From Actinomycetospora corticicola (lineage in GTDB: Bacteria; Actinomycetota; Actinomycetes; Mycobacteriales; Pseudonocardiaceae), in assembly GCF_013409505.1 (NCBI RefSeq), contig NZ_JACCBN010000001.1, positions 310,001 through 374,000 of the forward strand: 64,000 nucleotides of DNA, written 5' to 3'. A program made the translations under genes and the position numbers. The notes beneath the pieces are model-generated. The model ran no database searches. It saw nothing but the letters and a program-made list of their open reading frames with translations, and was not told the origin of the DNA. Below, in pieces: positions 28,319 through 64,000 of this stretch (the first letter of the stretch is position 1; the number at the start of each line of letters is the position of its first letter).

Positions 28319-28338
28319 GCGGCGCCTGGGCTCCGGCG

Positions 28339-28385
28339 GAGATGTAGCGGATCCGATGGCTGGGCGTCCGGATCCGCTACATCTC
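28339..28385. repeat. PAL-B hairpin, copy 1
   Basis: The 17-bp arms GAGATGTAGCGGATCCG and CGGATCCGCTACATCTC are perfectly complementary around a 13-nt loop. It lies 21 bp after the S9 gene and contains the stop codon of the convergent AbiEi/DUF559 gene. A closely related copy is at 29328. Confidence 0.85.
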
Positions 28386-29282
28386 TGCCCTGACTGCCCG
28401 GCGGCGGACCTCGATGATGCGACGCAACTCGTCGAGCAGCTTCTCCGGACGGTGCACCAGGTCGTCCCACGTCACCTCGATCACCACCCAGCCCGCGGCG
28501 ACGAGGGCGCGCTTCCGGGCCCGGTCGTCCACGAACCGCGACGGGTCGACGTGGAAGGCCCATCCGTCGACCTCCAGCGCCAGCTTCAGCTCCAGGAACC
28601 CGAGGTCGACCACCGCGTCCCGACCGTCGGGCAACGTGACCTCGAGGTTGACCGTCCAGCCCGTGATCCCCCCGCGGCGGAGCAGGGTGAGCGTGCGGCG
28701 TTCCGCGGTCGAGGCGGCCCGGTCGGCGGCCTCGTCGAGCATACGGCGGGCGACCCCGGAGCCCTGTCGACCGACGTGCCGGTCCTGCACGGTGTTCAGC
28801 TCCTCGAGGGTGACCCGACCCTGCTGCAACGCCCGGTCGAGGAACTCCTGGCCCCGACCACCGAGCGCCACCGCCGTGTCGAGGACGGCGAGGGCCCGCG
28901 CGACGACCCACAGGCCGCGGTGTTCGATCCGGTCGCCGCGCAGGTCTCGGCGGATCATGGCGACACCGTCCGGGGCGCGCCGGGAGGAGTGCGGCGGGAC
29001 GACGACGCCCACGGGATGGGGCGAGTCGATCTCGAGGCCGAGCCACCAGGCGGCAGCCGGTCCGGCCAGGGCCCCGGTGGGGCGGGCCCACTCGGCGGCG
29101 ACCCGGACCTTGGCAGCAGGCGTCCACCGCCAGGCGATCGCGAAGTAGACGCCGGGGGCCCGCCGCAGCCATTCACCGCTGGCGACCTTCCGGGCGATCT
29201 GGTCGTCGCTGAGCCCACATGCGCGGGCCTGGGCGCGGGTGATCACGCCGTCGTGGGCGGCGAGGAATCGCTGGAGCTTCAC
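28377..29282 (-). CDS. AbiEi-type N-terminal domain plus DUF559 (Vsr-like nuclease-fold) protein
   Basis: The 301-residue protein starts at GTG 29282. The N-terminus (KLQRFLAAHDGVITRAQARA, then CGLSDDQIARKVASGEWLRR) is the winged-helix domain of AbiEi-type antitoxin-like proteins. The C-terminus is a DUF559 nuclease-fold domain: TLLRRGGITGWTVNLEVTLP, VVDLGFLELKLALEVDGWAF, then KRALVAAGWVVIEVTWDDLV. The Asp and Glu-x-Asp residues in these strands are the probable metal site. No AbiEii toxin partner adjoins. It is flanked on both sides by PAL-B hairpins; the first contains its stop codon. Confidence 0.82.
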   Translation of the reverse strand: MKLQRFLAAHDGVITRAQARACGLSDDQIARKVASGEWLRRAPGVYFAIAWRWTPAAKVRVAAEWARPTGALAGPAAAWWLGLEIDSPHPVGVVVPPHSSRRAPDGVAMIRRDLRGDRIEHRGLWVVARALAVLDTAVALGGRGQEFLDRALQQGRVTLEELNTVQDRHVGRQGSGVARRMLDEAADRAASTAERRTLTLLRRGGITGWTVNLEVTLPDGRDAVVDLGFLELKLALEVDGWAFHVDPSRFVDDRARKRALVAAGWVVIEVTWDDLVHRPEKLLDELRRIIEVRRRAVRAEM

Positions 29283-29327
29283 ACAGGCTCGGACGCAGCC
29301 CGGGTCGGCGCGGATCCACGATTCTCG

Positions 29328-29374
29328 GAGATGTAGCGGATCCGAGGGCTCAGCGTCCAGATCCGCTACAGCTG
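29328..29374. repeat. PAL-B hairpin, copy 2
   Basis: The left arm (29328-29344) is identical to that of copy 1 (GAGATGTAGCGGATCCG). The right arm (CAGATCCGCTACAGCTG) pairs with it at 14 of 17 positions. The loop is also similar (AGGGCTCAGCGTC against ATGGCTGGGCGTC). With copy 1, in direct orientation, it brackets the AbiEi/DUF559 gene. Confidence 0.8.
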
Positions 29375-29377
29375 ACG

Positions 29378-30958
29378 TCAGCCGGAGAGGGACGCCCGGA
29401 GGTCGGCGAGCAGATCGCTGCGGGACTCCGACCCGAGGCGCTGGCGCATGCCCCGGACGTGGTGCTCGACTGTCTTCGCGGTGATGAAGAGCCGGTCGCC
29501 GATCTCGCGGTAGGTCAGTCCCTCGAGGACGAGCTCCGCCACCTCGCGCTCCCGGTCGGACAGCACGCAGGGCCGCGGGGTGGGGGTCACGACGACGGGG
29601 GCGGCCGCGGCCTCGACGGTCACGGTCTCGGCGGGCACGGCCGGGCCGGCCAGGATGCCGCGGGCGAGGTTGAGCATGGCGGCGAGGACGCGCTTGTCGC
29701 TGGTGCGGACGGCGGCCTCCTTGGCGAGGCGCGCGCCGTCGTAGGCCATGCCCGCGTCGGACAGGGAGCCCGCGACGGCGCTGACGTCGTCGGCGTCCAC
29801 GTCGCCGGCGAGCACCCGCAGCCACGTGCGGGCGGCCCGGGAGAGGACCAGTGCGAGGGAGCCGGCGTGGGCGGCCACGTCGGCGGCGCCCTCGGCGAGG
29901 TGTGCGGCGTGGCGCTGGGCGGCGGGCGGGTCGTCGGAGGCGACGGCGGCGAGGAACGCGCACCAGTGCCACGGCGCGGCCCAGAGGACCGGTTCGCCGA
30001 GGGCGGTGAGCAGCTCGTCGCCGGCCTGGAGGTGCGGGGCGAGCCAGGCCAGCTGGCCGAGGCGGCCGGCCACGACGGCGAGCTCCCCGATCGCCAGCAG
30101 CGACCACAGGTCGACGGCGTGGCGCAGCACGGCCTCGCGGGCGCGGGACCAGACGGCGAGCAGCCCGCGCGTGTCACCGGCACGGCGCACCAGGCCCGCC
30201 TCCAGGGCGACCGCGACCAGCTCGTCCCGGGCGTGGACCGGCTCCGGACGGGCGTTCGCGGCGTCCAGTCCGGCACGCGCCGCGAGCAGGTCGCCGCCCG
30301 CCATGTCCGCCCACGCGCGCAGGAGCAGGTGGCGCCGACGGTACGGCGCGCCCCCGAGGTCGGCGGCTACCGCGCGGTCGACGAGGGTGCGGGCGAGGTC
30401 GGGCTCGCCCCGGTGCAGGGCGACGAGGGCACCGAGCGCGGCGGGGGAGTCGTCGTGCAGCACCGGCGTGGCGCGGCACTCGAGCATCGCGGCGGCCCGG
30501 GTCAGGTCGGACAGAGCCGACGCCGAGCCGGCGGGTCGCACGCTCGCGCGGACCGCCTTCCCGACGAGGCCGTCGGCGCCGGTCCGGAGTGTCGGCGGCG
30601 CGGGGCGGCCCGGGTCGGCCGGGGAGTCGGGCAGCTCCCGGCCGGTGCCGACGAGGGCGATCGCCGCGGCGGGGGAGGCCTTCGCGGGGGCGACCGCGGC
30701 GACCCAGGCGTGCAGCTCCGCGGCGTCGGCGAGCATCCCGCGGTGGGCGTGCACCCCGGCGAGGACCTGCGCGGCGCGGACGAGGTCGGTGACCGGGGCA
30801 TCGGCGGCGAGCACCTCGTCGGCGCACCGGGCGGCCTCGACGAGCTCACCGGTCAGCGCGGCCTGCTCGGCGAGGGTGACGAGGTCGCACGACGACGGGC
30901 GCCCGGAGTGGCCGAGGTCGTCGACACTCATCGGGCGGTCCAGCTCGGGGGCGCTCAC
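29378..30958 (-). CDS. LuxR-type regulator paired with Hsp70-like protein
   Basis: The 526-residue protein ends in a LuxR/NarL HTH domain (about residues 465-520): LSDREREVAELVLEGLTYRE, then IGDRLFITAKTVEHHVRGMR. Most of the rest is Ala/Leu/Arg-rich helical repeats like a TPR-type array, with no receiver domain and no MalT-like ATPase motif. The GTG start at 30958 overlaps the Hsp70 stop in GTGA, so the two are translationally coupled. A near paralogue with the same coupling is at 61711. Likely targets are the Ini operon and/or its own operon. Confidence 0.87.
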   Translation of the reverse strand: MSAPELDRPMSVDDLGHSGRPSSCDLVTLAEQAALTGELVEAARCADEVLAADAPVTDLVRAAQVLAGVHAHRGMLADAAELHAWVAAVAPAKASPAAAIALVGTGRELPDSPADPGRPAPPTLRTGADGLVGKAVRASVRPAGSASALSDLTRAAAMLECRATPVLHDDSPAALGALVALHRGEPDLARTLVDRAVAADLGGAPYRRRHLLLRAWADMAGGDLLAARAGLDAANARPEPVHARDELVAVALEAGLVRRAGDTRGLLAVWSRAREAVLRHAVDLWSLLAIGELAVVAGRLGQLAWLAPHLQAGDELLTALGEPVLWAAPWHWCAFLAAVASDDPPAAQRHAAHLAEGAADVAAHAGSLALVLSRAARTWLRVLAGDVDADDVSAVAGSLSDAGMAYDGARLAKEAAVRTSDKRVLAAMLNLARGILAGPAVPAETVTVEAAAAPVVVTPTPRPCVLSDREREVAELVLEGLTYREIGDRLFITAKTVEHHVRGMRQRLGSESRSDLLADLRASLSG

Positions 30959-33144
30959 GCCGTCTTCGTGGCGTCGGCAGCCGCCGCGGGCGGCGTGGAG
31001 GTCGTGGTCCCGCCGGGGGCGGGGGTGCCTCCGCCGGACGGCGTGCCGCCACCGGACGGGGTCCCGCCACCGGACGGCGTGCCCCCGCCGGAGGGAGCAC
31101 CACCCCCGGACGGGGTGCCCCCGCCGGGCGGGGTGGTGTCCCGGGGGGTCTGGGCCGGGGGAGTAGCGGTGTTGACGGGTGCCGGGTTGTTCACGGCGGG
31201 TGCCGGGGCGACAGCCGCAGGCGGCGGCACGACGGCGGGCGCCGCGACCGGGGCGACCGGCTTCTTGGCAGCTGGGGCCGTCGTGCGGTTGGACTTGGTC
31301 GCCGCCACGTTGGTGGCGTTCCCGCCGGAGGTGTCCGTGGCTCCCGATCCGCCGAGGGTGTTCGGGGGGAGGGTTCCGGCGTCGCCGACGGCGGGGGCGG
31401 CCGGCGCGGGCGACGCGGCGCCCGGCACGGCCGAGGCGGAGATGCTGGCGTCGCCGCTGGTGTTCTTGACCATCGGCACCGCGACGGCGACGACACCACC
31501 GGCGACCAGCACGGCGGCGGCGCCGGCACCGATCGCGAGGCGGCGCTTGCGGGTGTCGGGCTTCCCGGGCGGGGCGAGCTGTCCGGCCCACGGCGCCGGG
31601 GCGGCGACGTGCGCGGGCGGCAGGGCACCGGTCGGCATCGGGGTGCGGCTCGGCAGGCCGGCGCCGAGGGTGTCGGTGACCGGGTCGTCGTCGATCGTCC
31701 GGTAGCGCGGGTCGAGGCGGACCGGGCTGGTCGTCGGGTCCTCGGCGTGCGCGCGCAGCGCGGCGGCCGGGCCGACGAACTCGGTGCGCGGCTCCGCCTC
31801 GGCGTGCGCGAGCAGGGCGGCGGCGGGGCCGACGAACTCGGTCCGCGGCTCGGGTCGATCGAAGGGACCGGAGATGGGGGCGGCGATCGGGGCACGACCC
31901 GGCGTCGGGAAGGGGCCCGAGATCGGGGCACGACCCGGCGTCGGGAAGGGGCCGGAGACCGCGGGGAAGGCTCCCGACGGCGGGCGGACGACGCCGGAGG
32001 CGGCCGCGGCGGCCCAGGTGGCGCCGCGAGCGACGACGGTGGTCGGGTCGGGGTCGATCGAGACCGGGCGGCCCAGCTCGGCGGAGAGCATCCGGGCGAC
32101 CAGCGGGATGCGGGAGGAACCGCCGACGAGGAGGACCCCGTCGAGGTCGGCCGGGCGGACGCGGGCGGAGTCGAGCACCTCGCCGAGGACGTCGATCGTC
32201 TGGCGCAGGGCCGGGGCGATCATCTCCTCGAACTCGCCGCGCGTGACGCGCACGCGGGTGGAGACGTTGGGCAGGCGGACGTCGACGACGGCCTCGGTGT
32301 CGACCGACAGCGCCTCCTTCGCCGCCACGCAGGCCCGGCGGAGGCCGGCGACGGCGCGGACGGTGGAGGGGTCGGCCGGGTCGAGGGAGGCGACGGCGCC
32401 GCCGAGCTCGGAGCAGACGTGCCAGAACAGGGCCTCGTCGAAGTCGATGCCGCCGAGGGCCTCGATGCCCTGGCCGCGGCCGAGGACGGTGAGGCCGACC
32501 GGCGCGACGGGGGAGGCGGGGACGCCGCGGACGACGGCGGCGTCGAAGGTGCCGCCGCCGAGGTCGTACACGGCGACGGTGCGTCCCACCGGCAGGCGAC
32601 CGGCGGCGGCGTGCGCGGAGGCGGCGGCCTCGGGCTCGGTGAGCAGGACGACGTCGTGCAGGCCGACCTCGGCGAGCGCCTCGGTGAACACGCGACGGCG
32701 GTACGCGCCCCAGCCGGCCGGGTGGGCCACGGCGAGCCGGCGCGGCGCGCAGCCCTGCTGGCCGGCGACGCGGTCGGCGGTCCAGCGCACCATCTCGGCG
32801 GCGACACCGTCGGCGGAGAAGCCCTCACCGGCGACGACGATCGGGGTGTCGTCGCCCAGGCGACGCTTGAACTCGCGGACCACGCGCTGCGGGGCCCACG
32901 GAGCGCGGGCCTCGGCCTCGCCGCCGACGAGCAGCGACCCGTCGTCGTCGACGAGGAGCACGGAGGGGACCTGGACGGCGCCGCGGTCGAGGCCGACGAC
33001 GCGCACGTCCGGTGCGGGGGCGAGGTGGACGGCGGCGGCGGTGAAGGTGGTGCCGAGGTCGATGCCGAGGTCGTAGGCCACGGGCGTCCCGGGTCCTGTC
33101 GTCCCCGCCCGACGCGGGTCCACCATCGTCACACCCAGCTCCAT
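30955..33144 (-). CDS. Membrane-anchored Hsp70-like (DnaK-family) protein
   Basis: The 729-residue protein has a complete Hsp70 nucleotide-binding domain: phosphate-1 YDLGIDLGTTFTAAAV (about 25-38), phosphate-2 VYDLGGGTFDAAVV (about 190-203) and the adenosine motif VLLVGGSSRIPLVARML (about 335). The substrate-binding domain is replaced by a Pro-rich linker with two internal duplications (SGPFPTPGRAP twice; RTEFVGPAAAL twice). A single membrane helix follows (LAIGAGAAAVLVAGGVVAVAV, about 535-555), and then a long Ala/Pro/Thr tail with GGGTPS repeats that would lie outside the membrane. It is divergent from iniB. ATG 33126 is an alternative start. Confidence 0.9.
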   Translation of the reverse strand: MELGVTMVDPRRAGTTGPGTPVAYDLGIDLGTTFTAAAVHLAPAPDVRVVGLDRGAVQVPSVLLVDDDGSLLVGGEAEARAPWAPQRVVREFKRRLGDDTPIVVAGEGFSADGVAAEMVRWTADRVAGQQGCAPRRLAVAHPAGWGAYRRRVFTEALAEVGLHDVVLLTEPEAAASAHAAAGRLPVGRTVAVYDLGGGTFDAAVVRGVPASPVAPVGLTVLGRGQGIEALGGIDFDEALFWHVCSELGGAVASLDPADPSTVRAVAGLRRACVAAKEALSVDTEAVVDVRLPNVSTRVRVTRGEFEEMIAPALRQTIDVLGEVLDSARVRPADLDGVLLVGGSSRIPLVARMLSAELGRPVSIDPDPTTVVARGATWAAAAASGVVRPPSGAFPAVSGPFPTPGRAPISGPFPTPGRAPIAAPISGPFDRPEPRTEFVGPAAALLAHAEAEPRTEFVGPAAALRAHAEDPTTSPVRLDPRYRTIDDDPVTDTLGAGLPSRTPMPTGALPPAHVAAPAPWAGQLAPPGKPDTRKRRLAIGAGAAAVLVAGGVVAVAVPMVKNTSGDASISASAVPGAASPAPAAPAVGDAGTLPPNTLGGSGATDTSGGNATNVAATKSNRTTAPAAKKPVAPVAAPAVVPPPAAVAPAPAVNNPAPVNTATPPAQTPRDTTPPGGGTPSGGGAPSGGGTPSGGGTPSGGGTPSGGGTPAPGGTTTSTPPAAAADATKTA

Positions 33145-33455
33145 CCCGCCGTGGCCGCCCGGACGGGGCGGCCGTGTCGCTGACTCGTGCGCATCATCGA
33201 CCCGATCCGGGCGGTCGTTACACGTTCGTAGCTCTATCGAGTGACGGTAGTCCGTTCGGATGGTCGAGCTACATCACCTGCCGTGACCCCGGGGTGCCGA
33301 TCGGGGACCCCGGTCCGGATCCCCTAGGGGGTCGTCCGCGGAACCCGGCGGGAGCCCCGATGGCCCCGACGCCCCCGACGACGACTGTTCTCACCACGCC
33401 GCCCGGACCGACCAGGCCCGAGGCGCTCCCACCTTCTTCCTCAGGGGCAGACACC
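33145..33455. promoter_or_regulatory. Divergent control region between Hsp70 and iniB genes
   Basis: This is the 311-bp gap between two divergent operons. It holds an interrupted inverted repeat GTAGCTC (33228-33234) and GAGCTAC (33266-33272), and GC-rich hairpin-prone sequence with GGGGACCCC and CCCCTAGGGGG. No small gene is seen in it. The inverted repeat is a candidate binding site for the LuxR protein at 29378; this is inferred. Confidence 0.5.
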
Positions 33456-34391
33456 ATGGCTGAGCACAAGACCCTCCTCGAGTTCCTGATGGACCTCCTC
33501 AACAACCACGACGCGCTCGCCGAGTTCCGCGACGACCCGCACGCCGCGCTGCAGGCCGCCGGCCTCGGCAACGTCTGTGTCGACGACATCAAGGAGCTCC
33601 TCCCCGTCGTCCTCGAGAAGGTCGACGCCGAGAAGTGCGCGCAGTACGAGGACGACTGCGACGACGACAAGTGCTGGGACGCCGAGCCCAAGCACCACGA
33701 CGACCACGAGCACCACCACAAGCACATCGACTGCGACGACGAGGGCCGCCCGGCTCCGCACTGCACCGAGATCGACAAGGTCGTCACGCACCTCAACTAC
33801 GTGACGAACAACTACTCGTACGACTCGCACGACACGTTCGTCACGAACAACAACATCACCAAGATCTGGGCCGGCGACAACGCCGACATCAACGTCGACA
33901 ACCACAACACCACCGCCGGTGCGGGTGGCGTCGCGGTGGGCGGCGACAACAACGCCCCGATCGTCACCGGCGACCACAGCTTCGTGGGCGACGGCAACCA
34001 GGTCTCCGGCGACGGCTCGACCACCGCCTTCGGTGCGGGCAACGCCACCTCGCTGGACCACGTCGGCACCGGCCAGGGCGGCGTCATCTCCACCGGCTCC
34101 GGCACGGTCAACAACTCGAACGCCTTCGGCGAGGGCAACCAGGTCGCCGGCGCCAACGGCGTCAACACCGACTCGCACGCCGACAACTCGGTCCACACCG
34201 ACGCCTCGACCAACGACTCGGGCAACACGAAGATCGACAACTCGCACCAGGACAACCACTCCGAGGCGAACACCGACTCGTCGATCCACGACAACGACAC
34301 CAAGCTGGCGAGCGACAACCACCTGACCGACGACCACTCGCAGGTCGTCGACCACGGCCACATCGACAACGGCCTGCTGCCGATCGCCTGA
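33456..34391 (+). CDS. iniB: IniB-like protein with Cys/His/Asp-rich insert and Asn/Asp/Gly-rich repeat tail
   Basis: The 311-residue protein starts at ATG 33456. Its first about 45 residues (MAEHKTLLEFLMDLLNNHDA, then FRDDPHAALQAAGL) match the IniB N-terminal domain. A cluster follows at about residues 60-110 containing CAQYEDDCDDDKCWD, HHDDHEHHHKHIDCDDEG and PHC, a likely metal-binding stretch. The last 200 residues are a low-complexity Asn/Asp/Gly/Ser/Thr series (GDGNQVSGDGS, GEGNQVAGANG) resembling beta-solenoid repeats. There is no signal peptide. It precedes the two dynamin-like GTPases, as in mycobacterial iniBAC. Confidence 0.85.
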   Translation: MAEHKTLLEFLMDLLNNHDALAEFRDDPHAALQAAGLGNVCVDDIKELLPVVLEKVDAEKCAQYEDDCDDDKCWDAEPKHHDDHEHHHKHIDCDDEGRPAPHCTEIDKVVTHLNYVTNNYSYDSHDTFVTNNNITKIWAGDNADINVDNHNTTAGAGGVAVGGDNNAPIVTGDHSFVGDGNQVSGDGSTTAFGAGNATSLDHVGTGQGGVISTGSGTVNNSNAFGEGNQVAGANGVNTDSHADNSVHTDASTNDSGNTKIDNSHQDNHSEANTDSSIHDNDTKLASDNHLTDDHSQVVDHGHIDNGLLPIA

Positions 34392-34478
34392 GTGGTCACA
34401 CCCATCGGGTGACAGGCATCCGGGGACGAGCGGCACGGCGGTCGGAGCGGGCCGCGTAACGTCCCCGAGGTGACAACG

Positions 34479-34510
34479 AGGCCGGGACACGGAACTCCGT
34501 GTCCCGGCCT
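34479..34510 (+). terminator. Strong hairpin between iniB and iniA
   Basis: AGGCCGGGACACGG pairs with CCGTGTCCCGGCCT in a perfect 14-bp stem with a 4-nt loop. It ends 21 bp before the TTG start of the GTPase gene. It could be a partial terminator that lowers expression of the GTPases relative to iniB, or an mRNA stability element. Confidence 0.65.
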
Positions 34511-34531
34511 TCGTGCGCGTGGGGAGGGGTC

Positions 34532-36358
34532 TTGAACAGCAAGGACCTGGTCGACCTGGTCAAGGTCGCCCGTCAGGCGGCGACGGCCTACGGCCGCCCC
34601 GACCTGGAGAAGCGGCTGTCGATCGTGTCGGCGACGGTCGCGGACGACCGCGCCCGGGTGCTCGTCATGGGCGAGTTCAAGGCGGGCAAGACCGAGCTGG
34701 TCAACGCGGTCCTCGGCGGCCGCGCACTGCCGACCGACGCCCACCGCGCCACCACCGTGCCGACGGTCTGCGTCCACGGCGCGCAGCGGGCGGTCACCCT
34801 GGTCCGCGCGGTCGAGGGCGGGCAGGAACAGCAGCAGATCGGGCCCGGCCAGCTCGCCGAGCACGTCACCGAGGCGGGCAACCCCGACAACCGCGCCGGC
34901 TGGTCCCACGCCGAGGCCACCCTGCCGGTCGACGTGCTCGAGGGCATGCGCCTGGTCGACACCCCCGGGGCGGGTGGGCTCGCCTCGCCGGCGTCGGTGT
35001 CGACCATGGCCGAGCTGCCCGGCGCCGATGCCATGCTGCTGGTCTGTGACGCCGGGCGGGAACTGACCGCGCCCGAGCTCGCCCTGGTCCGCACCGCCGC
35101 GGCGGTCTGCCACACGGTCGCGGTCGTGCTCACCCGCACCGACCTGCACCCGCACTGGCGCCGCATCGCCGACCTCGACCGTGGGCACCTCGACCACGCC
35201 CACGAGTCCCTGCGCCGGGTCCCGGTGCTGCCGACCTCGGCGGCGCTGGCGCTGCACGCGGCCGAGCACGACGAGGCGTCCCTGCTCGCCGAGTCGGGCC
35301 TGCCGGAGCTGCGCGACCTGCTGCGCTCCGAGGTCGTCGGAGGCCGGCACGCCCGGCGGACGCGGATGGCGACCGACGAGGTCCTCGTGGTCTGCGAGCA
35401 GCTCGCCGCCCGGTTCCGCGCCGAGCGCGACGCCCTGGCCGACCCGGGCCGGGCGCAGCGGATCAGCGACGAGCTGGAGCGGTCGAAGGCCCGGGTCGTC
35501 GCCCTGCGCGACCGTGCCGCCCGTTGGCAGCAGACCCTCAACGACGGCACCCAGGACCTGGTCTCCGACATCGAGTACGACCTCCGCGACCGCCTGCGCA
35601 CCGTCACCACCGACGCCGAGGCGGCCCTCGACGACACCGACCCCGCGAAGACGTGGGAGCAGTTCGCCCCGTGGCTGCACCAGCAGGTGTCGGCCGCGGT
35701 CTCGACGAACGTCGTCTGGGCGGAGGAGCGGACCCGCTGGCTGGCGGAGCGGGTCGCCACCCACTTCGCCGAGGACGGCGCCGGGGTGCTGCCCCCGATG
35801 GCGTCACCCGAGGGCCAGGTGATGGCGGCCGACCCGGTCGGGCTGCTGGCCGCGCCGGACCACGAGAAGTTCGGGCTGTCGCAGTCGCTGATGATCGGGA
35901 TGCGCGGGTCCTACGGCGGCGTGCTCATGATCGGCATGATGACCACGATCGCCGGCATGGCCCTGCTCAACCCGTTCTCGGTCGGCGCCGGCCTGCTGCT
36001 CGGCTCGAAGACCCTCGTCGACGAGCGCAAGCGGGCGCTGCGTCGCCGGCAGGCCGAGGCCAAGCAGGCGGTGCGCCGCCACGTCGACGACGTCATCTTC
36101 CAGGCGGGCAAGAACTCCCGCGACATGCTCCGCGAGGTCCAGCGCACGCTGCGCGACCACTTCACGACGACGGCGGAGGAGCTCGAGCGCTCCCTCAACG
36201 CCACGTCGCAGGCGGCCAAGGCCGTGGAGGCCGACGGGGCGAAGCGCCAGGCACGGCTCGCCGACGTCGCGGCGGAGCTCGAACGCCTCGAGGCGCTGGA
36301 GAAGCGGGCCCGTCGGATCCGGGAGAGCGTCGGGGCCGCCCGGCTGGTCGGCGCGTGA
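34532..36358 (+). CDS. iniA: IniA-like dynamin-family GTPase
   Basis: This protein of about 608 residues is read from TTG 34532, 4 nt after a GGAGG-type site. GTPase motifs: G1 GEFKAGKTE (about 47-55), the G2 region ATTVPTVCV, G3 VDTPGAGG (about 142-149) and G4 LTRTDLH. The following about 300 residues are helical. A hydrophobic hairpin YGGVLMIGMMTTIAGMALL/VGAGLLLGSKT (about 462-495) should insert into the membrane, and a charged coiled-coil tail follows. IniA proteins are bacterial dynamin-like membrane-remodelling GTPases linked to cell-wall stress and isoniazid tolerance. It is coupled by GTGA to the second GTPase. Confidence 0.9.
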   Translation: MNSKDLVDLVKVARQAATAYGRPDLEKRLSIVSATVADDRARVLVMGEFKAGKTELVNAVLGGRALPTDAHRATTVPTVCVHGAQRAVTLVRAVEGGQEQQQIGPGQLAEHVTEAGNPDNRAGWSHAEATLPVDVLEGMRLVDTPGAGGLASPASVSTMAELPGADAMLLVCDAGRELTAPELALVRTAAAVCHTVAVVLTRTDLHPHWRRIADLDRGHLDHAHESLRRVPVLPTSAALALHAAEHDEASLLAESGLPELRDLLRSEVVGGRHARRTRMATDEVLVVCEQLAARFRAERDALADPGRAQRISDELERSKARVVALRDRAARWQQTLNDGTQDLVSDIEYDLRDRLRTVTTDAEAALDDTDPAKTWEQFAPWLHQQVSAAVSTNVVWAEERTRWLAERVATHFAEDGAGVLPPMASPEGQVMAADPVGLLAAPDHEKFGLSQSLMIGMRGSYGGVLMIGMMTTIAGMALLNPFSVGAGLLLGSKTLVDERKRALRRRQAEAKQAVRRHVDDVIFQAGKNSRDMLREVQRTLRDHFTTTAEELERSLNATSQAAKAVEADGAKRQARLADVAAELERLEALEKRARRIRESVGAARLVGA

Positions 36359-37914
36359 CCGGCGCCGCCGACACCCGCACCCGACTCACCGACCAGGCCC
36401 GATCCGTCGTCGGGAATGCCCAGCGGCTCTACGGGACCGGGGCGCCCGACGCGGCCAACGGGTGGGCGCGGGCGGTGCTGCAGGACGCGCGGGCCCGGCT
36501 CGACGAGCCCCTGCGGGTCGCGCTCGCCGGGACGCTGAAGGCGGGGAAGTCGACGCTGCTCAACGCGTTGGTGGGCGAGCGTGTGGCGGCCACCGACGCG
36601 GGCGAGTGCACGCGGCTGGTCACCTGGTATCGCGACGCCCCGTCGCCGACGGTGCTGCGCGAGGACCTCGACGGGCGCCGCGGACCGGTGCCGTTCGCCC
36701 AGGACCGGGAGGGCCTGCGGATCGACCTGCGCGGGGTCGACCCGGCGCGGGTCGGGCGGCTGCTCGTCGACTGGCCGTCGCGGGGGCTCGCGGAGACGAC
36801 GCTGGTCGACACCCCCGGCCTCGACTCGATCCGCGAGACCAACTCCCGGCGCACGCTCGCCTTCGTCACGCCCGACGACCGGCCCTCCGGCGCCGATGCG
36901 GTCGTCTACCTGATGCGCCACGCGCACCGCAACGACGTCGGGTTCCTCGAGGCGTTCGCCGACCTCGCCCGGGGCGGCGCGGGTGGGTTGGGCGCGGTGG
37001 GCGCCTCCGGGACGGTCGTGGTCCTCTCCCGCGCCGACGAGATCGGCGGCGGGGGACTGGACGCCATCACGACGGCGGGTCAGGTCGCCGACGCGTACCG
37101 CTCCGACCCGGCGCTGCGGCCGCTGTGCCAGACGGTCGTCGCCGTCGACGGGCTGCTCGCCGAGACCGCGCGGACCCTGCGTCAGGCCGAGTTCACCGCC
37201 CTGCGGGCGCTGGCCCGGGCCCCGCGGGCGGAGGTCGACGCCCTGCTGCTCTCGGTCGACCGGTTCTGCGCGGCCGAGCCCCCCGCCGTCGTCGCGGAGG
37301 CCCTCGCGTCCGACCCGGAGGGGGTGCGGCTCGACGCGCCGACCCGGCGGTCGTTGATGGACCGCTTCGGCGTCTACGGCATCCGCACCGCGACGACCGT
37401 GCTCCGTCGTGGCGCCCGCACCGGCCGCGGCGTGGTCGACTCGGCGTCGCTGGCCGAGGAGCTGGTGCGCCGCTCAGGGCTCGAGGAGCTGCGCGAGGTG
37501 CTCGCGTCGCGGGTGGTCGGGCGGCGCGACGTGCACAAGGCACGGTCGGCGCTGCTGGCGGTCGAGATGGTGCTCGCGCGGGCGCCCCGACCGGACACCG
37601 GGCCGCTCGCGGCCGAGCTGGAGCGCGTGCTCACCGGCGCCCACGAGTTCACCGAGCAGCGCCTGCTCGCCGCGCTGCGCCAGGGGCAGGTGACGATGCC
37701 GCCCGACACGCAACCGGAGGCCGAACGGCTCCTCGGCGGCGACGGTCCTGACCCGGCCGAACGTCTCGGCGGCGCCGACGACCCCCGCGGGGCGGCGCTC
37801 GAGGCGCTGGACCGCTGGCGCACCCGGGCGGAGTCGCCGTTGACCTCACGCGCGGCCGCCGAGGTGGCCCGCGCCGTCGTGCGGTCGTGCGAGGGAGTGC
37901 TGACGCACCTGTAG
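36355..37914 (+). CDS. iniC: IniC-like dynamin-family GTPase
   Basis: The 519-residue protein starts at the GTG overlapping the IniA stop. Motifs: G1 GTLKAGKSTLLNALVG (about 59-74), G2 AGECTRLVTWY, G3 VDTPGLDS (about 151) and G4 LSRADEI. The rest is helical with no clear membrane hairpin, unlike IniA, matching the shorter IniC class. The pair is expected to act together at the cytoplasmic membrane. Its last 69 bp overlap the truncated EamA remnant on the other strand. Confidence 0.88.
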   Translation: MTGAADTRTRLTDQARSVVGNAQRLYGTGAPDAANGWARAVLQDARARLDEPLRVALAGTLKAGKSTLLNALVGERVAATDAGECTRLVTWYRDAPSPTVLREDLDGRRGPVPFAQDREGLRIDLRGVDPARVGRLLVDWPSRGLAETTLVDTPGLDSIRETNSRRTLAFVTPDDRPSGADAVVYLMRHAHRNDVGFLEAFADLARGGAGGLGAVGASGTVVVLSRADEIGGGGLDAITTAGQVADAYRSDPALRPLCQTVVAVDGLLAETARTLRQAEFTALRALARAPRAEVDALLLSVDRFCAAEPPAVVAEALASDPEGVRLDAPTRRSLMDRFGVYGIRTATTVLRRGARTGRGVVDSASLAEELVRRSGLEELREVLASRVVGRRDVHKARSALLAVEMVLARAPRPDTGPLAAELERVLTGAHEFTEQRLLAALRQGQVTMPPDTQPEAERLLGGDGPDPAERLGGADDPRGAALEALDRWRTRAESPLTSRAAAEVARAVVRSCEGVLTHL

Positions 37915-61681: not shown

Positions 61682-61721
61682 GTGAGCAGTAAAGGTCGCT
61701 ATCGCGACCTTCAGTGCTCAC
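61682..61721. repeat. PAL-A palindromic repeat, copy 8
   Basis: The 40-bp copy begins GTGAGCAGTAAAGGTCGC and ends GCGACCTTCAGTGCTCAC. The inner stem is GGTCGC/GCGACC instead of GGGGC/GCCCC. It holds the stop of the reverse-strand LuxR gene. GTGCGCTGCGCGCA precedes it. Confidence 0.9.
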
Positions 61722-63267
61722 ATGCGACCAGCACCTTCAGCTCGCTGAACAGCTCGGCGCGGCTCTCCGACCCGAGACGACGGCGGATGCGGGCCACGTG
61801 GTGCTCGACCGTCTTCGTCGACAGGAAGAGCCGGCCCGCGATCTCGCGGTAGGTCAGCCCCTCGAGGACGAGTTCGGCGATGTCGCGCTCGCGGTCGGTC
61901 AGCGTCGCCGACGCCTCGCGCCGGGCGCGGGTCACCGCGACGGTGCGGGAGGTCCCGGCGTCGGGAAGCGGCTCCGGGGCCGGGCCGGGGGCGGTCGGGA
62001 CCCGACCGGCCTGCAGCGCGCGGGCGCAGGCGAGGAGGGCGGCGGAGTCGGCGCGGTCGGTCGTGCGGATGGCGGCCTCGCCGGCGAGGCGGGCACCGTC
62101 CCACCCGAGCCCGACCGCGCGCAGGGCCGTCGCGGTCGCCGTCACGGCGTCGGCGTCGATGTCGCCGGCGAGCACCGCCAGCCACACGCGGGCGGCGCGG
62201 GCGGGGGCGACGGCGCGGTCGTTGGCCTGCGCGGCGTCCTCGAGGGCGGCCGCGTGGGCGCGGGCGGCGTCGTGGTCGTCGGCGGTGATGGCGGCGTGCA
62301 GCCGCGCCCAGTGCCAGGCGGTCGACCACGACGGCGGGTCGCCGAGGGCCGCGAGCAGCGCGGTCGCCTCGGCGAGGTGCGGGTCGACCCACCGACCCTC
62401 GCCGAGCCGGGCCGCGGCGATCGCGAGTTCGCCGACCGGCAGCAGGCAGTAGAGGTCGACCGGGTGGCGGAGCAGCGCCTGGCGTGCGCTGGCCCAGAGG
62501 TCCAGCAGCCGGCGGGTGTCCCCGGCGCGGCGGGCCAGGGCGACCTCGCACGCGACGGTCATCAGCGCGTCGCGCGGCTCCGGGGTGCCCGGGAGGTCGT
62601 CGGCGACCGCCAGCGCGGCCCGGGCGGCGGCCTCGTCGTCGCGGAGCATCGCCGACCAGGCCCGCAGGAGCACGTGGCGGCGGCGCAGGGCGGGACCGCC
62701 TAGATCGGCGTCGACGGCGAGGTCGAGCAGCGGCTCGGCGAGCTCGGGCTCCCCGCGGTGCAGCGCGAGCAGGGCACCGAGCGCGGCGGGGGAGTCGGCG
62801 GCCGGGCTCTGTTCCCCCGAGGCGGCGAGCGAGGTCGTCGCGCGGACGAGCAGGGACAGCGACGTGCCGGCGGTGCGGTCGCGCCCGTCGATCGAGGCGA
62901 GGAGGCCCTCGGCGGTCAGCGCGTCCGCACCGTCGCGCAGTCCGGGCAGGACGTCGTCGGCGGGGGCGACGGCGGCGCGCGCCTCCGCGGGGGAGCCGGT
63001 CCCGAGCAGGCTCACCACCGCACCCGGCGTGCCCGCGCCCTGGCGGGCCAGCCAGCGGTGCACCTCGGCGGCCCGGGCGAGCAGCCCGCGCTGCGGGAGG
63101 ACCGCCGCGAGCACCCGGGCGCCGAGGAGGCGGTCCGGACCGTCCCCCGTGCGCAGCGCGTCGTCGGCCAGCCGCAGCGCGGTGTCCGAGTCGCCGGCGA
63201 GCGCCGCGCGGGCGGCGGCCGCTCCACCGCCGGGCAGGTCGACCGGGGCGGGGTCGGGGGCGGTCAC
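61711..63267 (-). CDS. LuxR-type regulator, paralogue of the one at 29378
   Basis: The 518-residue protein has the same layout as the 29378 LuxR: an Ala/Leu/Arg-rich helical array, then the HTH LTDRERDIAELVLEGLTYRE, IAGRLFLSTKTVEHHVARIR and RRLGSESRAELFSELK. The GTG start overlaps the stop of the Hsp70-tail gene in GTGA, again like the first pair. The final residues VACEH are encoded by PAL-A copy 8. Its targets are probably outside the window. Confidence 0.88.
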   Translation of the reverse strand: MTAPDPAPVDLPGGGAAAARAALAGDSDTALRLADDALRTGDGPDRLLGARVLAAVLPQRGLLARAAEVHRWLARQGAGTPGAVVSLLGTGSPAEARAAVAPADDVLPGLRDGADALTAEGLLASIDGRDRTAGTSLSLLVRATTSLAASGEQSPAADSPAALGALLALHRGEPELAEPLLDLAVDADLGGPALRRRHVLLRAWSAMLRDDEAAARAALAVADDLPGTPEPRDALMTVACEVALARRAGDTRRLLDLWASARQALLRHPVDLYCLLPVGELAIAAARLGEGRWVDPHLAEATALLAALGDPPSWSTAWHWARLHAAITADDHDAARAHAAALEDAAQANDRAVAPARAARVWLAVLAGDIDADAVTATATALRAVGLGWDGARLAGEAAIRTTDRADSAALLACARALQAGRVPTAPGPAPEPLPDAGTSRTVAVTRARREASATLTDRERDIAELVLEGLTYREIAGRLFLSTKTVEHHVARIRRRLGSESRAELFSELKVLVACEH

Positions 63268-64000
63268 GAGGCCGTCCCGGTGGTCGGGGCCGCGCTCCCG
63301 GAGGGCGCGGGTCCGGAGGCGACCGGGGTCTCGGCGGTCGGGGCGGCCGCGCTCGACGGCGCCTGCGCCACGGGGCTCGCGACGTCGGGCGACGGTGCCA
63401 CCGCGGCGGGGGCGGGGTTCCCGACGACGGGTGAGGGCGCGGCCGGAGCGGCCGGTGCGGCGGGGGCCGGAGCGAGGGCCGCCGGTGCGGCGGCCCCGGC
63501 CTGCGGCCGCAGGTTCTGCGCGGTCGGCGTCCGGGAGGAGCGGGTGGTCGTGGTCGTGGCCGGGCGCCGTGTGGTCGTGCCGGTCGGCGACGAGCTCCCC
63601 GAGGTCTCCGTAGCGGCCTGCCCGCCCACGGAAGGCTCGGTGGACGGCTCCGTCGCGGGGGAGGGGGCCGCAGGGGCGGTGGCCGCGAGGGGCGGCGCCG
63701 CCGGGGCCGCGGCCGGCGTGGGTGCGGTGGTGGTCGGGAGGGGGGTGCTCGTGGAGGTGCGGGCCGAGGTGAGCCCCGGGATCGGCACGGCGACGGCCAC
63801 GACGGCCAGCGCGATCAGGGCGACGGCCAGCAGGATCCAGGCGCGGTAGCGGCGCAGCGGGCCCACGGGGGCCAGGTCGCCGACCGGGGCGGCCGCCGTC
63901 GCGACCGGCGGGCGCGGCACGTCGTCCCCGACGATCCGGGGACGTTCCATCAGGGCCGTCGACCCCGACCGCGCGGGGCGCCGGAGCTCCTCCTCGGGAG
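63264..64000 (-). CDS. C-terminal part of a second membrane-anchored Hsp70-like protein (cut by right edge)
   Basis: The frame is open to the right edge. The first visible residues are PEEELRRPARSGSTALMERP. A single membrane helix follows (YRAWILLAVALIALAVVAVAV), and then about 180 residues of Ala/Pro/Thr-rich sequence (TRRPATTTTTRSSRTPTAQN). This matches the linker, helix and tail of the Hsp70-like protein at 30955, and it is coupled to a LuxR paralogue in the same way. The ATPase domain would lie beyond the window. A start at 63950 would make a stand-alone protein, which is less likely. Confidence 0.72.
   Translation of the reverse strand, partial: PEEELRRPARSGSTALMERPRIVGDDVPRPPVATAAAPVGDLAPVGPLRRYRAWILLAVALIALAVVAVAVPIPGLTSARTSTSTPLPTTTAPTPAAAPAAPPLAATAPAAPSPATEPSTEPSVGGQAATETSGSSSPTGTTTRRPATTTTTRSSRTPTAQNLRPQAGAAAPAALAPAPAAPAAPAAPSPVVGNPAPAAVAPSPDVASPVAQAPSSAAAPTAETPVASGPAPSGSAAPTTGTAS

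Follow-up and report, generated by a model that had tools for sequence, protein, structure and literature searches.

In mycobacteria, IniR orthologues bind in front of the iniBAC genes and activate them; binding before iniBAC was seen for M. tuberculosis IniR by chromatin immunoprecipitation sequencing (ChIP-seq), and trehalose is a known cue for IniR (PMC5760070, Boot et al. 2017). IniA is reported to mediate membrane fission (PMC6715688). It is not settled how iniBAC is switched on upon envelope damage in mycobacteria and their kin. In this report we describe an iniBAC locus of Actinomycetospora corticicola, at positions 29378-37914 of the window (the whole 64,000-nucleotide stretch that was analysed, 310,001 to 374,000 of contig NZ_JACCBN010000001.1, part of a 6.17-Mb single-contig genome). 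Here the gene of an Hsp70-type protein overlaps an iniR gene, as in most of the loci examined, and this overlap, together with a mapped candidate operator, makes the question directly testable in harmless species.

The locus shares with the mycobacterial iniR/iniBAC system (Rv0339c) the IniB N-terminal domain, two dynamin GTPases and an adjoining activator of the IniR family (PMC5760070). It differs in that its IniR has no ATPase domain and is overlapped by an Hsp70 with a transmembrane segment (TM) and an intact active site. Boot et al. mention that M. smegmatis has a dnaK-like gene downstream of iniR, and the consulted passages on mycobacterial IniR name no protein partner (PMC5760070). No literature was found that names IniR and Hsp70 together as whole words, and no work was found that covers the combination of regulators with an Hsp70 that is membrane-bound or consists of the nucleotide-binding domain (NBD) only. 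Among the GTPase-centric conflict systems, actinobacterial neighborhoods pair GTPases with HSP70 proteins that lack the peptide-binding domain; these, however, are GAP1-N2 systems with other GTPases, and the words "dynamin" and "IniA" are absent from the main text of that paper (PMC7159879). That IniR activates iniBAC was known; what is new is that iniBAC loci widely carry an NBD-only Hsp70, a pairing that is widespread in related bacteria and has hardly been noticed before.

The STAND (signal transduction ATPases with numerous domains) activator of the E. coli maltose regulon, MalT, has the tetratricopeptide repeat (TPR) fold of its domain III and the LuxR helix-turn-helix (HTH) in common with the window regulator. 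The partners of MalT are MalK, MalY and Aes, whereas the window protein has no STAND ATPase and its candidate partner is Hsp70. The window Hsp70 has the NBD fold (7kru, 2v7y) and the catalytic residues of DnaK; unlike DnaK it has no substrate-binding domain and carries a TM and an outer tail, and most of its relatives at ini loci are catalytically broken. The genes of the locus are as follows.

29378..30958, minus strand: short IniR (the "LuxR" protein), a MalT domain III-like TPR superhelix and a LuxR/GerE HTH, without an ATPase domain
30955..33144, minus strand: Hsp70-type protein with an NBD, one TM and an outer tail, without a substrate-binding domain
33145-33455: intergenic region between the divergent Hsp70 and IniB genes
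33456..34391, plus strand: IniB, an IniB N-terminal domain followed by a long low-complexity part rich in Asn, Asp, His and Gly
34535..36358, plus strand: IniA, dynamin-like GTPase; a TTG start is assumed, with GTG at 34499 as the alternative
36355..37914, plus strand: IniC, dynamin-like GTPase, overlapping the end of IniA by 4 bp

The short IniR and the Hsp70-type protein of the window

An earlier, sequence-only reading of the window had placed an Hsp70-LuxR pair divergent from IniB, IniA and IniC genes resembling mycobacterial iniBAC. The genes were confirmed at the coordinates above, and their computed identities agree with that likeness. IniB matched the IniB N-terminal domain profile NF038175 (60.8 bits against a cut-off of 40), and residues 6-586 of IniA matched the solved structure of IniA (6j72, E 6e-106). 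The Pfam family Dynamin_N was found in both IniA and IniC, which follow IniB in this order; IniC is a dynamin GTPase by Pfam and was assigned as IniC by synteny.

The regulator matched the NCBIfam profile NF038181 (isoniazid response ATPase/transcriptional regulator IniR) over positions 330-825 of 827 (E 1.9e-98). Its score of 330.9 bits is under the curated cut-off of 750, as are those of full-length IniR relatives beyond one Mycobacterium-like genus. The N-terminal ATPase part of NF038181 is absent, as is a STAND NTPase domain; in a Pfam profile scan the protein gave a GerE HTH (residues 465-516) and no receiver or ATPase family, just as the sequence-only reading had described its LuxR protein. 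The AlphaFold2 model (mean pLDDT, the predicted local distance difference test, 90.2) is an all-helical superhelix with a C-terminal HTH. Among 954 chains aligned to it, the best fit was domain III of MalT (1hz4; Z 21.2, 339 residues, root-mean-square deviation 4.6), followed by the Rap TPR proteins (Z 20.0). By its profile match, the window regulator derives from IniR, the activator family of mycobacterial iniBAC, in an ATPase-less form, and is not IniR proper. Its closest named relative is from Actinomycetospora soli (90% identity), and the ratio of nonsynonymous to synonymous substitution rates (dN/dS) of 0.09-0.29 against five relatives indicates purifying selection. The gene begins with GTG, and its first 4 bp (GTGA) also hold the Hsp70 stop.

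The Pfam HSP70 match of the Hsp70-type protein covers the NBD part only, with the best stretch at 103-377 of 599 profile positions; the match ends there, and the substrate-binding domain is absent. A structural model, built for residues 1-395 only, has a mean pLDDT of 90.4 and matches the DnaK structures 7kru and 2v7y at E of about 1e-29. All seven residues scored as the catalytic core are kept; we take these seven, in E. coli DnaK numbering, to represent the active site. The single TM is the hydrophobic segment at residues 538-556, with the basic flank KPDTRKRRL on the NBD side, and the outer tail after it, 173 residues long, has a composition dominated by A, P, G, T and S; no Pfam family was matched in it. 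The NBD is under purifying selection (dN/dS 0.03-0.22 against five relatives). Judged by domain content, this is an Hsp70-type NBD protein and not DnaK; its description as a membrane-anchored Hsp70 without the classical substrate domain was correct.

Linkage of Hsp70 to ini loci and decay of its catalytic core

Two sets of loci were drawn by IniR, blind to Hsp70 (stretches carry L numbers and genomes G numbers below). The named set holds 80 loci, the best 80 of 300 confirmed relatives; the order set holds 65 stretches from the 61 of 200 genomes of the order with IniR at E <= 1e-18. Loci were called type A when Hsp70 lies directly upstream of IniR, and type B when it lies elsewhere and divergent from IniB. 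In the named set, 64 of 80 loci were type A and 9 type B, 73 together; Hsp70 was not seen in seven, six of which are cut on the 5' side, while L113 ends soon past IniB. The order set gave 55 type A and 2 type B loci, together 57 of 65, the type B count taking in the third ini locus of the A. corticicola genome, whose Hsp70 is in the next stretch, L040. The remainder of the order set comprises two cut stretches, L196 and L222 with an Hsp70-like gene only beyond IniC, and four stretches, L072, L091, L092 and L098, without Hsp70. Conserved linkage across actinomycetes, which the sequence-only reading had put forward for checking, is thus strong. The start codon of IniR overlaps the Hsp70 stop by 4 bp at 105 of 143 Hsp70-IniR junctions, some genomes being counted twice; no natural in-frame fusion of the two was met in the stretches scanned. 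The linkage spans many genera and Mycobacterium-like genomes; neither rearrangement nor the duplication that gave this genome three loci has broken it. We take the linked genera, from their names, to fall in Pseudonocardiaceae, Micromonosporaceae, Geodermatophilaceae and Nocardiaceae.

The catalytic core was scored in 164 NBDs of ini stretches and in two other Hsp70s of the genome (complete being 7/7, with Ser allowed at T199). In type A loci whose IniR bears the ATPase, 5 of 114 Hsp70s had a complete core and 109 a degenerate one. Where the IniR behind Hsp70 counts as ATPase-less or partial, its domain match being below 80% or missing altogether (L084 and L103 have partial ones), 11 cores were complete and 9 incomplete. 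Type B Hsp70s were complete in 12 cases and incomplete in 1. In a third layout, type C, the counts were 11 and 0 where the stretch has no IniR, and 2 and 4 where it has one. These counts are lineage-bound, and some genomes were entered twice, e.g., L060/L123 and L046/L122. By hydropathy, 45 of the 109 broken-core Hsp70s keep a TM and 64 show none; all 20 Hsp70s beside an ATPase-less or partial IniR have one. In the alignment of 112 full-length IniR copies, 109 still have the Walker A Lys and all have the Walker B Asp. The P-loop is kept in 164 of 172 IniA and 140 of 141 IniC proteins (116 of 172 and 77 of 141 for the stricter string DTPG). By these counts, most ini loci can do without catalysis and anchoring by Hsp70, while they retain the gene in its position and overlapping iniR.

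The genome carries three ini loci, each with an Hsp70. A second complete Hsp70-short IniR/IniBAC locus (copy 2) lies about 31 kb away from the first, at 61714-64000 and beyond (L039:9714-18811), and includes the following gene.

61714..63267, minus strand: second short IniR, a paralogue, with estimated start; its locus runs past the window end

A G+C peak of 0.815 at 62001-64000 overlaps the copy-2 IniR and Hsp70 tail. The third locus, at 5.07-5.09 Mb, has a full-length IniR. Four other genomes (G001, G006, G014 and G016) likewise have two short and one full-length IniR match, and in G006 the locus with the full-length IniR (L193:17312-19965) holds two Hsp70-type genes in tandem. The 13 scored matches of each of the near-complete genomes G009, G010 and G015 (96-97%) include short IniRs and no full-length one, and so the short form seems independent of any full-length paralogue. 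Stretches L180-L190 of Actinomycetospora have no IniR and carry IniA, IniC and Hsp70 on one strand, with Hsp70 downstream of IniC; G009, G010 and G015 are among their genomes, with the short IniR located elsewhere. In G017, a seventh genome besides the six IniR-less ones treated below, only a C-terminal IniR fragment was found, on another contig. In L182 a convergent gene for a 930-residue AAA_16-LuxR regulator and one for a 535-residue protein rich in Pro, Thr and Glu adjoin IniA-IniC-Hsp70.

Three simple rules for the decay did not hold. The rule that Hsp70 replaces a lost IniR ATPase, so that one of the two must stay active, was rejected since copy 2 (7 stretches) and L089 have neither. The rule that both ATPases decay together was dropped: a strict Walker A regular expression missed 59 of 113 copies, but the alignment finds the Lys nearly throughout. 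The rule that Hsp70 decays beside an ATPase-bearing IniR gave, on a tree for which 166 rows were thinned to 81 with less than 72% identity, six changes and two independent pairs on supported branches (five on all branches), without significance.

The box array between the Hsp70 and IniB genes

Three boxes were mapped in the intergenic region of the window.

33299..33307, minus strand: possible reverse-strand box TCCCCGATC, known from the window sequence only
33321..33330, plus strand: distal box CCCCTAGGGG, 34 bp upstream of the proximal box
33355..33363, plus strand: proximal box CCCCGATGG

Boxes were counted in 83 non-redundant Hsp70/IniB intergenic regions, taken from the 116 under 600 bp among 130 in total. 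TCCCCGATG was present in 51 and CCCCTAACG in 39 of the 83; in 20 first-order Markov shuffles any 9-mer reached at most 11. In 36 of the 83, CCCCTA precedes C(C/A)CCGATG by 57-59 bp, against none in 200 shuffle rounds, and a further 23 such pairs are spaced 65-67 bp, i.e., 8 bp further out. Mycobacterium-like loci have CCCCTAA boxes only. In the 6.17-Mb genome, CCCCTA-N24-62-CCCCGATG has a single match, at the window locus. A stricter tandem pattern matched 5 of the 200 order genomes, once each and about 1.4-2.2 kb from IniR (control 0); all five bear IniR and the matches are at their ini loci, and the other 56 of the 61 IniR-bearing genomes have no match.

The spacing of 34 bp in the window contrasts with 58 or 66 bp at full-length-IniR loci of other families. 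Within the genus, 13 of 15 stretches with a short IniR have 34 or 35 bp (L049 and L054 do not), a count from which L122, a repeat of L046, was left out and in which copy 2 was scored with the looser TCCCCC and CACCGATG. At the genome's own full-length-IniR locus the spacing is 66 bp and the box is CCCCTGT. Spacing as a marker of ATPase loss was rejected, since 33 bp is also found in the full-length loci L099 and L064 and since no pair is seen in L055, L089 or L161, all three of them ATPase-less. None of the 11 type C stretches without IniR has a box match, but neither does the IniR-bearing L193. We take the complement of the boxes (GGGGAT) to resemble the MalT box. The computed array is probably the IniR operator, because of its position and because IniR binds before iniBAC in M. 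tuberculosis by ChIP-seq (PMC5760070). The motifs described for HpoR and MtrA at iniB promoters are unlike the window boxes (PMC13413693, PMC2945938). Alland et al. 2000, a paper on the iniBAC promoter, may already record the boxes.

Possible roles of the Hsp70-type protein and a neighboring gene

We propose that the window locus is an iniBAC locus for envelope stress whose IniR, lacking the ATPase, would have its activity set by Hsp70 as a dedicated partner; from the sequences at hand we give this an even chance. The short IniR would be a MalT-like activator cut down to its TPR arm and HTH, which would bind the boxes lying between the Hsp70 and IniB genes and activate iniB-iniA-iniC, as is taken from the mycobacterial experiments; the IniA and IniC dynamins would then remodel or seal the membrane during envelope stress. 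The Hsp70-type protein would bind IniR, probably via the TPR platform, and set its activity. We infer this binding, the direction of its effect, the identity of the boxes as operator and the in-trans switch described below. Hsp70 is read as a partner of IniR because of the overlapping frames, the TM-less broken forms and the closer tracking of IniR distances in type A. There, the partial correlation of Hsp70 distances was 0.52 with IniR, 0.22 with IniA and 0.20 with IniC (ATPase domain excluded; means of 70% subsamples); this is weak support, because linked genes share history. In most relatives a catalytically broken NBD would act on an ATPase-bearing IniR; in copy 1 of the genus, an Hsp70 with an ATP site and a membrane anchor may give IniR its missing nucleotide switch and tether. 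In the broken forms the NBD would be kept for regulation after the loss of its catalytic residues. The sharper version, in which a membrane-anchored NBD reaching outside is the in-trans ATP switch of an activator that has lost its STAND ATPase, which would make this an Hsp70-gated transcription factor for envelope stress, and a dead "pseudo-Hsp70" regulates ATPase-bearing IniR in sister lineages, we regard as doubtful.

Several results weigh against a partnership with IniR. There is no Hsp70 beside IniR in L072, L091, L092, L098, L196 and L222, and type B loci keep Hsp70 where IniR stands apart. Hsp70 stays with IniA-IniC in six IniR-less Actinomycetospora genomes (G002, G004, G005, G008, G011 and G012). 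When the ATPase domain is entered as an additional, fifth gene, the correlations in type A become 0.29 for IniR, 0.26 for the ATPase, 0.25 for IniC and 0.11 for IniA; over types A and B together Hsp70 tracks IniC (0.43) above the ATPase (0.29) or IniR (0.17). Only few events, not statistically independent, link Hsp70 catalysis to the architecture of IniR. Copy 2 (7 stretches, one from this genome) pairs an ATPase-less IniR with a broken core, K70 being S or T in 7/7 and T199 being R in 5/7, and L089 does likewise; with neither ATPase intact, copy 2 speaks against a strict need for Hsp70 gating. The 57-59 bp box pair is absent from 47 of the 83 intergenic regions, Mycobacterium-like loci included.

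Some of these points suit a place for Hsp70 on the effector side, as a membrane NBD-type chaperone or scaffold for IniA and IniC (and IniB) that is merely co-regulated, with the short IniR acting alone. This is a serious alternative, because Hsp70 stays with IniA-IniC in the six IniR-less genomes and tracks IniC better over types A and B, and we consider it possible, although not probable. Hsp70 accompanies IniA-IniC in all three layouts, and its core is complete in 23 of 24 cases when type B (13 Hsp70s) is pooled with the IniR-less type C stretches (11 Hsp70s). The 4-bp overlap, however, is with IniR, and the loss of the core in 109 of 114 type A loci and of the TM in 64 of 109, while the P-loops of IniA and IniC are kept, would be strange if Hsp70 served dynamins as a membrane chaperone. 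The same losses bear on the full chain put forward in the sequence-only reading, in which the outer tail senses the wall, the nucleotide state of the NBD shifts, IniR is released or activated and the dynamins are induced. All of its parts are intact in the window, where a TM with a basic NBD-side flank, a long tail and a complete core stand in an overlapping frame with an ATPase-less regulator that derives from IniR, so that a chain from tail to ATPase to IniR is possible at this locus. As a general mechanism it is not supported, given the broken cores, a TM kept in only 45 of 109, Hsp70 with IniA-IniC in the absence of IniR, and the type B loci; nor has the tail a Pfam match, and mycobacterial IniR answers to trehalose (PMC5760070). 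Overall we find the full chain unlikely. Least probable, and in our estimate very much so, is that Hsp70 is a bystander that shares the divergent promoter region by inheritance only, with no role in envelope stress. The six loci without Hsp70 beside IniR and the decay of the active site in many lineages would fit a bystander, but the linkage over many genera and Mycobacterium-like genomes, which survives rearrangement and duplication to three loci here, does not, and copy 1 is under purifying selection.

Just downstream of IniR, within 28337-29373, the minus strand carries at 28377-29336 a gene with an AbiEi_4 and a DUF559/MTES_1575-type part. It is flanked by two 48-nucleotide imperfect palindromes that are direct repeats of one another (90% identical), and the gene and its repeats are perhaps a mobile cassette. 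Looser copies of the repeat were found at genome positions 560183 and 4094327, with three and two mismatches, respectively.

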